In this document: piece by piece, positions 10,658 to 21,460 of the stretch
How positions within the stretch are numbered: position 1 is the first letter of the stretch
Layout of the letters: each line of letters begins with the position of its first letter
Assembly: GCA_020846655.1 (NCBI GenBank)
Contig: JADLDL010000193.1
Coordinates: 1-48,891, forward strand
Origin: Saprospiraceae bacterium
GTDB taxonomy: Bacteria > Bacteroidota > Bacteroidia > Chitinophagales > Saprospiraceae
Length of the DNA stretch: 48,891 nucleotides
Reading direction: 5' to 3'
Notes under the pieces: generated by a model
Seen by the model: only the letters and a program-made list of their open reading frames with translations
The model's database searches: none
Told to the model about the DNA's origin: nothing
Made by a program: the position numbers and the translations under genes

Positions 10658-11554
10658 CTAAATCTGCCGCAGCAATGCCTCCAGCCACTGCTTCACCCGC
10701 GTATGCGCGGCCAGGTAACCAAACAACAAATACCCGCCCGTGGCCACCGCGCCGCCCAACAACACATCGATGGTGTAGTGGTGCCTGGTATAAATTGCCG
10801 CAAACCAAATGCCGGCCACAAATACCCCAAACAACAGGTTCAGCCACCAGCGCCCCAGTTGGCGCCCATACAGCAGACACAGCACGGGGTACGCCGCGTG
10901 TAAGGACGGGATCGCAGCAAACACGTTGGAGGCTTTGGTGTAAATATTGGCAAACAGGGAAATGCCAAAAAATGCATCGAAACGCAGCAAGCCTGCCGCG
11001 TTGCCGGGCAGTACACTTTTTAGTTCAAACCCATACTGCTCCACATACCAGGGTGGCGCCGCCGGATACAGGTAGTAAATCACAAATCCGAGCGTGTTGG
11101 CAAACAAAAAACCATACGAAAACCGCACAAAAAGCGGCTTGTTGTGGCGAAACAGCCACACCCCAAACGCCAGCGGCAAGGGTATCCAGCACAGGTAAAA
11201 CAAGCCCGACACCACATCCAGCCAAGGCGCTCCATGCGCCAGGAAATACTCGTTCAGCGTCACCCGGCCAGCCGCTGTGTTTACCCCAAACAGCCATTTT
11301 TCCAGGTCATAGGGCTCGGCAATGTGCACCGGGTTGACGCTGTGGTTGGGCACCACCCGCATGGAATCATACAAAATCCAATAAATGATAAAGGCCGAAA
11401 AGGCCAGCACAAAGCGCCGCAGCGTGCCGCCGGCCCAATACAAACCGACCACCAGGACGAAAAGAAAAACGTGCTCCGGCCGAAGCCCCACAAAAAAATA
11501 AAACCACGAAAAGTACGCCAGGGTGCCGGCTGTCAGGTAAAGGATGCGTTTCAT
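10658..11554 (-). CDS. AUR1-like PAP2 transferase, candidate inositol-phosphoceramide synthase
   Basis: The 298-residue protein has six to seven predicted membrane segments and the PAP2_3 signature of yeast AUR1-type inositol-phosphoceramide synthases: YPAAPPWY (163-170), PSLHAAYP (216-223) and YTRHHYTIDVLLGG (255-268). H219, H259 and D263 form the expected catalytic triad. AUR1-type enzymes move phosphoinositol from phosphatidylinositol to ceramide, releasing diacylglycerol. It is the last gene of a tight minus-strand run that also has a CDP-alcohol phosphotransferase 36 bp upstream and inositol-3-phosphate synthase further up, which supports this role. A plain lipid phosphatase of the PAP2 family is the main alternative. 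Confidence 0.78.
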   Translation of the reverse strand: MKRILYLTAGTLAYFSWFYFFVGLRPEHVFLFVLVVGLYWAGGTLRRFVLAFSAFIIYWILYDSMRVVPNHSVNPVHIAEPYDLEKWLFGVNTAAGRVTLNEYFLAHGAPWLDVVSGLFYLCWIPLPLAFGVWLFRHNKPLFVRFSYGFLFANTLGFVIYYLYPAAPPWYVEQYGFELKSVLPGNAAGLLRFDAFFGISLFANIYTKASNVFAAIPSLHAAYPVLCLLYGRQLGRWWLNLLFGVFVAGIWFAAIYTRHHYTIDVLLGGAVATGGYLLFGYLAAHTRVKQWLEALLRQI

Positions 11555-11590
11555 GAACGTTCAGGAAAAAACAAAAGATAAAGTCGAAAC

Positions 11591-12307
11591 CTACTGCTGC
11601 CGGGCCTTGCGGTCGACCTGGTCCAGCAAGACTTTCGATTCGCGCATGCGTTGTACGGCCGTCCAGTTGGTCAGGATGGCCATTACAAAAATCGGAAACG
11701 TGAAAATGGTGATGTTTTCGAGCCAAGGAAAATCCGTGCCCGGCACCACGTATTTGAAATCGCCGGCGTAGCGCTGCACCAGCCCGCACAAAATAGCCGT
11801 GATGCCCACCAGCAACACCCGCTCGGGGCGCTGCATCAGCCCGCCTTTGCACTCAATGCCCAGGCCCTCGGCCCGCGCCCGCACATAACTGACCATGATG
11901 GAGCCAATCATCGCAATAAATGCAAACAACGAACTCAAAAAGTACTGCTGCGCTACCAGGTAGTAGCAAATGCCCAGAAACATGACCAGCTCGCTGTACC
12001 GATCCAGTACCGAATCGTACATGGCGCCAAAGCGGCTTTCCATCTTGCCTACCCGGGCCAGGCGGCCATCCATCATGTCGAACAAACCAGCCAACAGGAT
12101 CACGCAGCCGCCCCAGGACACATAGCGCAGGTCGCCCCGCGCAGCGTACGCGCCGTACACAAACACGATGGTAGCCACGATATTGAGCAAAAAGCCAAAG
12201 GTGGTCACCATGTTGGGCGTCACGCCTGCCCGGACCAGGAAGTTGATGAGCGGTTGGATAAACCGGTAGACGATGGGTTGGCCGACTTTATACAGGAAGT
12301 TTGACAT
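11591..12307 (-). CDS. CDP-alcohol phosphotransferase, probable phosphatidylinositol-phosphate synthase
   Basis: The 238-residue membrane protein has the full CDP-alcohol phosphotransferase signature D-x2-D-G-x2-A-R-x8-G-x3-D-x3-D with D77, D80, G81, A84, R85, G94, D98 and D102. The rest is about six hydrophobic segments. Enzymes of this family join CDP-diacylglycerol to an alcohol in the membrane. The nearby inositol-3-phosphate synthase and PgpA-like phosphatase argue that the alcohol is inositol-3-phosphate, giving phosphatidylinositol-phosphate. Phosphatidylglycerol-phosphate synthase is an alternative from sequence alone. It sits 33 bp after the SDR gene and 36 bp before the PAP2 gene, so co-transcription is likely. 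Confidence 0.85.
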   Translation of the reverse strand: MSNFLYKVGQPIVYRFIQPLINFLVRAGVTPNMVTTFGFLLNIVATIVFVYGAYAARGDLRYVSWGGCVILLAGLFDMMDGRLARVGKMESRFGAMYDSVLDRYSELVMFLGICYYLVAQQYFLSSLFAFIAMIGSIMVSYVRARAEGLGIECKGGLMQRPERVLLVGITAILCGLVQRYAGDFKYVVPGTDFPWLENITIFTFPIFVMAILTNWTAVQRMRESKVLLDQVDRKARQQ

Positions 12308-12340
12308 AGGGAGAAACGCTGATTCGTGTGAAAGTAGGGA

Positions 12341-19081: not shown

Positions 19082-19121
19082 AGTGTTAAAGCGATATAGT
19101 TTTTGTGTGAAAGGATTGGAT

Positions 19122-20249
19122 TCAGAGTTCCTTCTCGTAGATCCGGTACTTGCGGTATACTTTTCCGTTGATGCGCTCCAGGGCGCGGTTCATCATATCG
19201 TTGTTTTCCAAAATCCAGGAGGCTTCGTGCCGGACCATGCCTTTGCGCTGGGCGGTTTTGATGTTCCGGACGTAAAAACAAACATCGATGCCCAGGCGCC
19301 GGTATTCTTTCAGGGTGCCGAGGGCAATGACCCGCACGCCGCTGATTTTTTTGAGCCCCAGCAGGAGTTTGAACACACCAAAAGGAAACAGCCGCCCGCG
19401 TTTCAGCCCGATCTGAATCTGGTTGACATTGGGGACGCTGAGCGACACGCCGATGGTTTTGCCGTCTTTTTCAGCAAAATACACGAAATCGGGGTCGATC
19501 ACCGGTTTCAGGTCTTTGGCAATCTGCTTCAACTCCTCGTCGGTCATGGGCACGAATCCGGTGTTTTCGGTCCAGGATTCGTTGTACACCGGCAGGAAAT
19601 TATCGAGTTCCCGCGCGAAATTTTTCATGTTGACCGACCGAATGGTGATCCCGCGTTCGGCGAGTCTCCGTTCGAGGTTTTCACCCAGGGTTAAAATATC
19701 GGGCGGCATTTCGGCCGTCACCAGCGAATAGCAGAAGAGGTCGACGTTTTTTCGAAAACCATAGTTCTCCAGCAAATCGACGTAGTAGGGCGCATTGTAG
19801 GTCATCATGATGAACGGCGGTTCATCAAAATTTTCGACCAGCAGCCCCACGGTTTCGTTGGTGGAGAAATTGGCCGGCCCGATGACTTTTTCCATACCCT
19901 GTTCGCGCAGCCAGTTGGAGGCGGTGTCGAGCAGGGCCATGGCCACTGCCGGGTCATTGACGACGTCAAAAAAACCAAAAAAACCTTCCTTTTGGCCGCT
20001 GTGGGCCAGGTGGTTGCGGTTCAGGATGGCGGCGACGCGGCCGGCGATTTTGCCGTTTTGCATCGCCAGGAAATACGCCGCCGTTGAGTGTTTGAAAAAC
20101 GGCGACTTTTTCGGGTTGAGCAGGGCCTCCTGGTCCATGTACAACATCGGCACATAGTTCGGGTCGCCGGCGTATAAATCATGCGGAAAATCAATGAATT
20201 GCCGCAATCGGGAGCTATGGCCGGGATCTATGCTTACGATGTCGATCAT
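19122..20249 (-). CDS. GNAT-fold acyltransferase, candidate bacterial ceramide synthase
   Basis: The 375-residue protein belongs to the large GNAT-like family that opens with R-x-F-I-D-F-P-x-x-L-Y-x-x-D-P-N-Y-V-P (about 15-33) and carries an acyl-CoA-fold C-terminal half ([18 protein letters not shown]). Its ATG overlaps the serine palmitoyltransferase stop as ATGA, so the two are translationally coupled. In Caulobacter an acyltransferase of this general type makes ceramide by acylating the long-chain base (known from the literature, by memory). That makes N-acylation of sphinganine the most likely function here, but the acyl acceptor is inferred from the neighbours. Confidence 0.8.
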
Positions 20250-21460
20250 ACCGTTACGGTTTCTATTTGCCGGTCGAGAATACCCAGTTGTTTGGCATGG
20301 CGGTATAAAATGTCCACCGCACGGTCGATCTGCTCGATCGTGTGGGTAGCCATCAGCGAGAACCGGATCAGCGACTCTTCGCTGGGCACGGCCGGGCTCA
20401 CAACGGGGTTGATAAACACGCCTTCGTGAAACGACTGGGTGGACAGCGCAAAGGTTTTGTAGTTGTCGCGCACATAGAGCGGGATAATCGGCGAGGCCGT
20501 ATGCCCGATTTCGAAACCCAGGTCGCGGAACCGGCTGATGGCGTAGTTCGTGTTGACCCAGAGGTGATCGATGCGTTCCGGTTCGGCTTTGATGATCTCC
20601 AGGGCGGCCAGTACGCTGGCAGCGGAGGCGGGGGTCATGCTGGCGCTGAAAATCAGGGAGCGCGAGTGGTGTTTCAAAAATTCAATCACCGAATGCGAGG
20701 AGGCGATGAAGCCGCCCAGCGACGCGAGGGATTTGCTGAAGGTGCCGATTTGGATATCTACGGCGTCGTTGACCCCGAAGTGCGAGCCGGTGCCGATGCC
20801 CAGTTCGCCGATCACGCCGATGGAATGCGCGTCGTCGCACACCACAACGCCGTTGTGTCGTTTGGCAATCTGAACGATTTCATCCACGGGGGCCAGGTCG
20901 CCTTCCATGCTGAAGATACCGTCGACAACGATAAATTTCATGGCTTCGGCAGGCAGTCGGGCGGCCATGCGTTCGAGGTCTGCCATGTCGTTGTGGGCAA
21001 ATTTTTGGACGCGGCCGAACGACAGGCGCGTGGCGTCGATGATCGAGGCGTGTACCCGTTCGTCGATGAGGATATAATCGTGGCGGCCGACCAAGGGGGC
21101 CAGGGCGCCCAGGTTGGCCTGGAAACCGGTGCTGTAGAGAATCACCGATTCGCGTTGGAGGTAATCGGCCAGGGCTTCTTCCAGCTCGATATGGATGCTG
21201 AGGGTGCCGTTGAGGAAACGCGAGCCGGCACAGCCGGTGCCATATCGGGAGGTGGCTTCACGAGCAGCCTCTTTGATTTTAGGGTGGTTGGTCAGACCGA
21301 GGTAGGAGTTGGAGCCGAACATGAGTACCGGCTTGCCATCGATCATTACTTCTGTGTCCTGTTCGGATTGAATCACCCGAAAATAGGGATATAGGCCGGC
21401 TTTGCGTGCCTCATCCGGAGCAGTGTAGGCATCGGTGCGTGCTAGTAAGTTTTTATTCAT
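20246..21460 (-). CDS. Serine palmitoyltransferase
   Basis: The 404-residue PLP enzyme belongs to the alpha-oxoamine synthases. K243 in [12 protein letters not shown] binds PLP, H137 (DERVHAS) stacks on the cofactor, and D210/H212 (CDDAHSIG) hold the ring. The segment [17 protein letters not shown] (74-90) is typical of bacterial serine palmitoyltransferase, whereas 2-amino-3-ketobutyrate ligase and BioF usually differ there. It joins serine and a long-chain acyl-CoA to 3-ketosphinganine, the entry step to sphingolipids. It is the first gene of the ten-gene minus-strand run, preceded by 293 bp without a gene and a GbsR-type regulator gene. Confidence 0.9.

Follow-up and report, generated by a model that had tools for sequence, protein, structure and literature searches.

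We analysed a 48,891-nucleotide stretch of DNA from a Saprospiraceae bacterium (assembly GCA_020846655.1, contig JADLDL010000193.1; hereafter the window), in which ten open reading frames (ORFs) at 10658-21460 probably constitute an operon whose products would make inositol phospho(dihydro)ceramide, a yeast-like inositol sphingolipid, from simple precursors (probability about 0.8, judged from sequence). All ten lie on the minus strand, as an initial annotation of this DNA had stated. In order of transcription, their predicted products are a serine palmitoyltransferase (SPT), a tandem-GNAT acyltransferase, an inositol-3-phosphate synthase (MIPS), PgpA-, GtrA-, DUF5686- and CPBP-family proteins, a short-chain dehydrogenase/reductase (SDR), a phosphatidylinositol-phosphate synthase (PIPS) and an AUR1-type synthase (Table 1). 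The joint cluster itself recurs in relatives; what is unusual here is that the run has no gene for CerR, the usual reductase, and carries a CPBP-SDR pair.

The ten genes are closely packed. SPT and GNAT overlap by 4 bp (ATGA), MIPS and PgpA by 29 bp, and PgpA and GtrA by 71 bp (a value that varies with the start chosen). The other junctions are gaps of 40 bp (GNAT-MIPS), 109 bp (GtrA-DUF5686), 34 bp (DUF5686-CPBP), 32 bp (CPBP-SDR), 33 bp (SDR-PIPS) and 36 bp (PIPS-AUR1). The initial annotation was correct about the ATGA junction, but the 16-bp gap that it listed is absent (gaps are 32-109 bp) and the 29 bp that it placed between MIPS and PgpA are an overlap. At the ends of the run, the spacer between SPT and a MarR-like gene is 293 bp long, and that between the AUR1-type gene and lpxC 281 bp. 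We infer that the ten genes are co-transcribed as one operon; the limits of the transcript are putative because the flanking genes that were checked (LpxC, LpxA, MarR-like, RecR and Usp) lie on the same strand. The GC content of the ten genes (0.54-0.58) is close to that of the whole window (0.552) and thus offers no hint that foreign DNA was inserted.

Homologues were compared in three sets: (i) 298 genomes of the window's order, in which a strong AUR1-type match means more than 200 bits and SPT is called at E 1e-115; (ii) 80 loci, the best 80 of 527 relatives in a scan with the GNAT alignment, which were picked for likeness to the window's GNAT and do not measure phylum-wide frequency; and (iii) a second set of stretches from order and class genomes, which partly overlaps the 80 loci. 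The papers referred to below are cited from excerpts.

Table 1. Predicted genes of the run and the adjoining regulator gene, in order of transcription from SPT, with the evidence for each assignment (the regulator is listed last)
Predicted product	Coordinates	Strand	Evidence
Serine palmitoyltransferase (SPT), first step	20246..21460	-	NCBIfam NF047600 638.6 bits (cut-off 640)
Tandem-GNAT acyltransferase, candidate ceramide synthase	19122..20249	-	Neighbourhood and predicted fold
Inositol-3-phosphate synthase (MIPS)	17726..19081	-	PF07994 342.5 bits, PF01658 110.9 bits; solved structure 7nwr 545.7 bits
PgpA family, predicted phosphatidylinositol-phosphate phosphatase (as BT_1525)	17290..17754	-	PF04608 139.7 bits
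GtrA-family membrane protein (as BT_1524)	16785..17360	-	PF04138 62.2 bits
DUF5686 protein with N-terminal carboxypeptidase-regulatory-like domain	14111..16675	-	PF18939 169.5 bits, PF13715 54.1 bits
CPBP-family (Rce1-like) intramembrane protease homologue, first of the CPBP-SDR pair	13357..14076	-	PF02517 45.2 bits (cut-off 22.4)
Extended SDR with GxxGxxG and YxxxK, proposed 3-keto reductase in place of CerR	12341..13324	-	NCBIfam, trees, alignment
Phosphatidylinositol-phosphate synthase (PIPS, BT_1523 type)	11591..12307	-	NF052561 347.3 bits (cut-off 350)
AUR1-type inositol phosphoceramide synthase (BT_1522 type)	10658..11554	-	NF052609 296.7 bits (cut-off 480)
MarR-like regulator, just upstream of SPT	21754..22239	-	PF12802 27.2 bits (cut-off 27)

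Predicted functions of the gene products

The sphingoid-base half of the run begins with a protein whose best match is the SPT model, ahead of KBL, BioF and cysteate acyltransferase (the next best NCBIfam model reaches 386 bits). Among solved structures, it scores 510 bits to SPTs and 231 bits to cysteate-C-fatty acyltransferase. The neighbouring GNAT protein (375 aa) matches no Pfam or NCBIfam model at E 0.01, and its alignment profile finds a single solved structure (E 0.053). Its AlphaFold2 model (pLDDT 91.2, from 34 sequences) has a tandem-GNAT fold: in the solved-fold search 2wpw ranks first by E-value (TM 0.59/0.66) and the tandem GNAT 7q3a has the best TM scores (0.65/0.71). Bacterial ceramide synthases (bCerS) are GNAT-like. 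In the window, a GNAT-type fold is encoded directly beside SPT, and SPT accompanies GNAT in 72 of the 80 loci. From neighbourhood and fold, the GNAT is thus a candidate ceramide synthase.

In the inositol half, the MIPS, PgpA and GtrA proteins, like the DUF5686 and CPBP proteins, all exceed their Pfam cut-offs, the CPBP protein with an Rce1-like domain above the gathering score. The PgpA gene is the sole PF04608 match in the window's genome, and a DUF5686 homologue is present in 46 of the 80 loci. The PIPS carries the CDP-alcohol motif DX2DGX2AR..GX3DX3D, as given in PMC9246714, and matches the solved PIPS 6wm5 at E 2.5e-20. A role in phosphatidylglycerol synthesis can be rejected for this gene, since the pgsA model gives only 33.4 bits against 347.3 bits for the BT_1523-type synthase model. 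The last product of the run, a PAP2 protein, scores 82.6 bits on PF14378. Its only NCBIfam match at E 0.01 is the phosphoinositol-dihydroceramide synthase model and its only solved-structure match at E 0.1 is AUR1 (9vj3, E 9.5e-16), which argues against a plain phosphatase role. The two proteins have PSLH, HHY..D and PAAPPWY segments in common. PSLH and HHY...D align to 9vj3, and we take the His-His-Asp of these two segments to be the catalytic triad of AUR1 and inositol phosphoceramide (IPC) synthase. The initial annotation had named, as a result that would refute it, a phylogeny in which the CDP-alcohol and PAP2 genes fall with phosphatidylglycerol or phosphatase clades; judged by profile scores rather than by a tree, they do not.

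On these assignments, the pathway would run as follows: (i) SPT would condense serine with an acyl thioester; (ii) the tandem GNAT would attach the N-acyl chain; (iii) the NAD(P)-dependent SDR would reduce the 3-keto group; (iv) PIPS would join inositol phosphate to CDP-diacylglycerol; (v) PgpA would strip a phosphate to give phosphatidylinositol (PI); and (vi) the AUR1-type enzyme would transfer phosphoinositol to (dihydro)ceramide. GtrA may aid headgroup or lipid handling, and two of the ten genes (DUF5686 and CPBP) have no pathway step assigned. According to the review PMC10191378, bacteria make dihydroceramide rather than ceramide. These activities are inferred, and the pathway is supported by family membership and solved relatives for SPT, MIPS, PIPS, AUR1, PgpA and GtrA. 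The view that each expected step has a plausible enzyme, already held in the initial annotation, is therefore backed by homology. Also, all five members of the BT_1522-1526-type gene set (MIPS, PgpA-type phosphatase, GtrA, PIPS and phosphoinositol-dihydroceramide (PI-DHC) synthase) are present on one strand.

Several observations nevertheless weigh against an IPC operon. The GNAT belongs to no named family, and its label as a ceramide synthase comes from neighbourhood and fold; eight of the 80 GNAT loci show no SPT in the stretch (six of these stretches span 17-21 kb and two less than 5 kb). Three key proteins stay below curated NCBIfam equivalog cut-offs, SPT by 1.4 bits, PIPS with 347.3 against 350 and the synthase with 296.7 against 480, a value reached by none of the 298 order genomes. 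PgpA and GtrA persist in three members of the window's genus (G301, G309 and G365) in which genome searches return no AUR1 match, DUF5686 persists in two of them (G309 and G365), and the SPT-bearing G351 has no PgpA; these roles may thus not be inositol-specific. Finally, 14 of the 50 order genomes with strong AUR1-type matches, including the genus-mate G377, have no SPT, which suggests that AUR1-type genes may have other acceptors.

For the window itself, an acceptor other than ceramide, with another phosphoinositol lipid as product, appears improbable. The SPT-less genomes and the distance of the synthase from its model cut-off would fit it, but the AUR1-type gene is linked to SPT in the window and in 19 other order genomes, the AUR1 segments are conserved in the window protein, and knock-out of BT_1522 abolished PI-DHC and left phosphoinositol diacylglycerol in place (PMC9246714). 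It is scarcely credible that cysteate is the substrate of the SPT-like enzyme and sulfonolipids are the product of the cluster: synthesis of these lipids is known in Bacteroidetes (PMC9304779), but the bit scores to solved proteins favour SPT by more than two to one, and the same run holds inositol headgroup genes. A more serious alternative, though still an unlikely one, concerns the layout, that is, an arrangement of the ten genes in several transcription units on one strand. The shared strand of the flanking genes would allow this, and the 109-bp gap before DUF5686 contains a promoter-like site (16770-16743), although such sites are no commoner than in shuffled sequence (7 observed versus 8.1, standard deviation (sd) 2.4); terminator-like sites number 27 versus 21.3 (sd 4.8). 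Against several units, the other eight junctions are overlaps or gaps below 45 bp, the spacers at the two ends measure 281 and 293 bp, and many relatives keep the gene set on one strand.

Six close GNAT homologues (46-50% identical; L126, L145, L146, L150, L151 and L163) have no SPT within 17-21 kb, and a weak LpxC-like match lies near four of them (L126, L145, L151 and L163). The AUR1-type genes of SPT-less genomes comprise that of G377 (L040) and those of 13 other order genomes; in six such stretches (L035, L036, L037, L041, L043 and L053), no MIPS or PIPS is found in the stretch examined. In G213 (L044, 8607-10684), a tandem pair of AUR1-type genes follows MIPS-PgpA-PIPS, and one of the two lacks the PSLH segment.

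Recurrence of the joint cluster and comparison with known systems

The initial annotation regarded the presence of both halves in one run as special. Our results do not bear this out. In the window's order, 55 of 298 genomes match the AUR1 model, 50 of them strongly; 20 of these 50 (the window's included) have SPT no more than about 12 kb away on the same strand of the same contig, and 16 have it on another contig or far away, where short contigs could hide linkage. At class level, nine of 119 genomes match the AUR1 model (seven above 200 bits), and one genome outside the order (G110) also has SPT and AUR1 linked. SPT and AUR1 share a strand in 32 of the 80 loci, and 27 of these 32 hold all of SPT, GNAT, CerR, MIPS, PIPS and AUR1. 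The linked loci include cultured Pedobacter, Mucilaginibacter, Chitinophaga, Chryseolinea, Chryseosolibacter, Rufibacter, Taibaiella, Nubsella and Hufsiella. SPT and AUR1-type genes thus occur on one strand in one locus in seven Bacteroidota families (two oddly labelled records left aside), which suggests that the arrangement is more than chance. There are two recurrent layouts: one, shared by the window, starts with SPT and ends with AUR1; the other, PIPS-AUR1-SPT-GNAT-CerR-MIPS-PgpA, occurs elsewhere in the window's family. We found no published description of SPT joined to the inositol genes in a literature search that covered few subscription journals. A gene for a DAGK/YegS-type lipid kinase occurs in or after some clusters (L020 16035-16934, L167, L172 and L176). 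Three records labelled Williamsia, Bacteroides and Beijerinckiaceae (L119, L130 and L173) hold SPT-GNAT genes and look like mislabelled or mixed bins.

The initial annotation was right that SPT lies apart from the inositol genes in Bacteroides. In B. thetaiotaomicron, BT_1526 is MIPS, BT_1525 the phosphatidylinositol-phosphate (PIP) phosphatase, BT_1524 GtrA, BT_1523 PIP synthase and BT_1522 PI-DHC synthase, and SPT is BT_0870 (PMC9246714, PMC8791184). This inositol half was defined by deletion of BT_1522, 1523, 1525 or 1526 (PMC9246714); the roles of BT1522, 1523 and 1526 agree in PMC8791184, where a BT1525 mutant was not obtained. The BT_1524 mutant left thin-layer chromatography unchanged in PMC9246714 and had less IPC and more PI in PMC8791184. 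The window keeps the same relative order of MIPS, PgpA-type phosphatase, GtrA, PIP synthase and AUR1-type synthase, but has SPT and GNAT in front and DUF5686-CPBP-SDR between GtrA and PIPS. A carboxypeptidase-regulatory-like gene (BT_1527 homologue) lies near the clusters of PMC9246714, and resembles the window's DUF5686 gene by domain description. The Caulobacter spt-bcerS-cerR pathway (PMC11087976) follows the same logic of SPT, acyltransferase and reductase, likened here by role; the excerpt describes no inositol half there.

Clusters in Pedobacter, Mucilaginibacter, Chitinophaga, Chryseolinea, Rufibacter and Taibaiella (within L104-L174) read SPT-GNAT-CerR-MIPS-PgpA-DUF5686-PIPS-(DUF4833)-fatty acid hydroxylase-AUR1. 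Like the window, they have SPT first and AUR1 last on one strand within about 7-12 kb and keep the MIPS-to-AUR1 order. Unlike the window, whose run has neither, they contain CerR, and a hydroxylase is present in 31 of the 32 linked loci; the window has the CPBP-SDR pair instead. Similar layouts are found in the genus-mates G369 and G383 (L024, L029, L180 and L181), and read SPT-GNAT-...-MIPS-PgpA-GtrA-DUF5686-PIPS-...-AUR1 with an AUR1 65% identical to that of the window. These clusters differ in having a hydroxylase, CerR and a delta4-desaturase-type gene together with the inositol genes, and no close CPBP or SDR match.

In G301, G309 and G365, the locus is flanked as in the window, by usp-recR at one end and lpxC-lpxA at the opposite one, and contains a hydroxylase, SPT, GNAT, a Lipid_DES/FA_desaturase gene, CerR and the PgpA and GtrA genes noted above (the Pfam domains are from L065 and L024, and other genus loci were matched by similarity). 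Given these differences in gene content among G301, G309 and G365, G369 and G383, and the window, the operon slot is highly variable within a single genus. The window's locus has no CerR, desaturase-type or hydroxylase gene, which several genus-mates keep in the cluster; its genome has no Lipid_DES match and five hydroxylase-family matches, all on other contigs. Genes combining Lipid_DES (sphingolipid delta4-desaturase) and FA_desaturase domains lie inside SPT clusters in L024 (17191-18204), L065 (11920-12927), L178, L179, L180 and L181, and 65 of the 298 order genomes have a Lipid_DES match.

A 2024 survey (PMC11334938) repeats, in the excerpt used here, the observation that spt, bcerS and cerR were not seen near one another in Bacteroidota that produce sphingolipids. 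The loci in our sets, most of them from Sphingobacteriales, Chitinophagales, Cytophagales and Saprospirales, combine SPT, a tandem GNAT and a CerR-type SDR in a tight unit, which is often joined to the whole inositol half; one Rikenellaceae record (L140) also has SPT-GNAT-CerR. Provided that the GNAT and the adjoining SDR are ceramide synthase and CerR, these loci do not fit that statement as a general rule. The tight unit would also supply a candidate ceramide synthase for these bacteria, including the cultured genera Pedobacter, Chitinophaga and Mucilaginibacter.

The operon SDR and the absence of CerR

The initial annotation tentatively assigned ketosphinganine reduction to the SDR of the run. 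An SDR with reductase motifs is indeed present, but it is not the usual CerR; it is a different SDR, paired with a CPBP gene. It carries the Rossmann glycines and YxxxK common to CerRs in the alignment. The 32 CerR rows fall on one side of a branch that leaves the SDR outside (100/99 in a first tree, 95/99 in a second); both trees held few outgroup SDRs, and the second omitted the long-branched L201 and L067. The best family scores are 164 bits for HpnA (cut-off 368) and 135.6 bits for OleD (NF042422; cut-off 580), so that the SDR is a relative rather than a member of the OleD family, a lipid-type 2-alkyl-3-oxoalkanoate reductase that by its name also reduces a 3-oxo lipid. Two canonical CerRs score 52-53 bits on the same OleD model. 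From these comparisons, the SDR of the run is not a CerR that has diverged.

CerR is otherwise a regular companion of SPT and GNAT, present in 71 of 72 (80-locus set) and 21 of 23 (second set) stretches that hold both. Two of the loci without it, L173 and L030, stop at the GNAT gene; L064 does not, and its genome has a CerR-clade gene beside MIPS (L025). The run in the window contains no CerR, and we found no CerR ortholog in the window's genome (96.7% complete, 398 contigs; BT_0972-type KDSR was not searched for). A CerR query from G369 returns only the operon SDR there (30%, E 2.8e-21). The same query gives E 3.6e-91 or better in the SPT-bearing genus genomes G301, G309, G351, G365, G369 (the query source) and G383, E 1.2e-82 in genome G341, and 1.5e-16, 9.5e-13 and nothing in the SPT-less genus genomes G359, G377 and G407, respectively; a second CerR query agrees.

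The CPBP-SDR pair is found elsewhere in the order. CPBP matches at E 1e-15 in 17 of 298 genomes and the SDR at E 1e-35 in 11; nine genomes have CPBP only, three SDR only, and eight have both, adjacent every time (the window's, G341, G166, G206, G243, G246, G249 and G261). The second SDR tree gathers all ten pair SDRs on one side of a branch (99/95); in the first, which includes L201 and L067, they need two changes and only those of the window and G341 hold together (99/95). The pair in G341 is followed by an intact AUR1-type gene. The SPT-GNAT-CerR-MIPS cluster of that genome lies on another contig, where, close to the contig end and just upstream of SPT, there is part of an AUR1-like gene with a single internal stop (contig C146, bases 336-572, in L176). 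Directly upstream of the pair in G166 is a gene for a neutral/alkaline ceramidase (PF04734, 357 bits; L197 2625-4415), itself preceded by a weakly DUF5686-like gene (27%, 50 bits). Beside the pair in G206, G243, G246, G249 and G261, no cluster query matched apart from the window's flanking ABC gene. The pair's neighbours in four f63 genomes of genus g148 point to no common pathway among those scanned (three in L195, one each in L193, L194 and L200, none in L196). A sister relationship between the window's AUR1 protein and that of G341 is rejected (p-AU 0.024). A quick AUR1 tree contained the window's protein twice (L066). The pair has perhaps joined an IPC synthase twice independently, for which support is weak because the G341 branch is long.

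Whether the SDR performs the CerR step in place of CerR is, on present sequence comparisons, close to an even question. Such a replacement is suggested by the absence of CerR, by a reductase-type SDR within the operon and by the pair's position beside AUR1 or ceramidase genes elsewhere. The competing view, which we consider slightly the weaker, keeps the IPC operon but has the SDR tailor the lipid or headgroup, with reduction by an unlinked KDSR of the BT_0972 type or by a CerR in the unassembled part of the fragmented, 96.7% complete genome. It draws on G341, which has both the pair and a normal CerR, so that the SDR need not be a replacement. It also draws on the five genomes without a cluster query gene beside the pair in the stretches examined, on a YhhN-family neighbour in L195 and L200 (some neighbours scanned) and on the activity in vitro of a BT_0972-type KDSR in Bacteroides (PMC9278070). 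What speaks against it is the near-constant presence of CerR in SPT-GNAT stretches and in the six other SPT-bearing genus genomes, and its absence precisely here, where the operon has another SDR.

More tentatively, the CPBP-SDR pair could be an undescribed sphingolipid module, in which an OleD-like SDR takes over the CerR step together with a membrane CPBP protein, and which joined an IPC synthase perhaps twice and a ceramidase once (G166). Within the window's genus, the pair coincides with the absence of CerR, the delta4-desaturase-type gene and the cluster hydroxylase; if the proposal is true, the inositol sphingolipid of this organism would be finished in a different way. The CerR step is periplasmic in Caulobacter. 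A run of sphingolipid genes that has no CerR could serve as a natural experiment, revealing whether another SDR can carry out this step, and in which compartment.

Upstream of SPT, a gene 32% similar to the window's MarR-like gene also precedes SPT in Rufibacter (L105), the sole such match in the 80-locus set.

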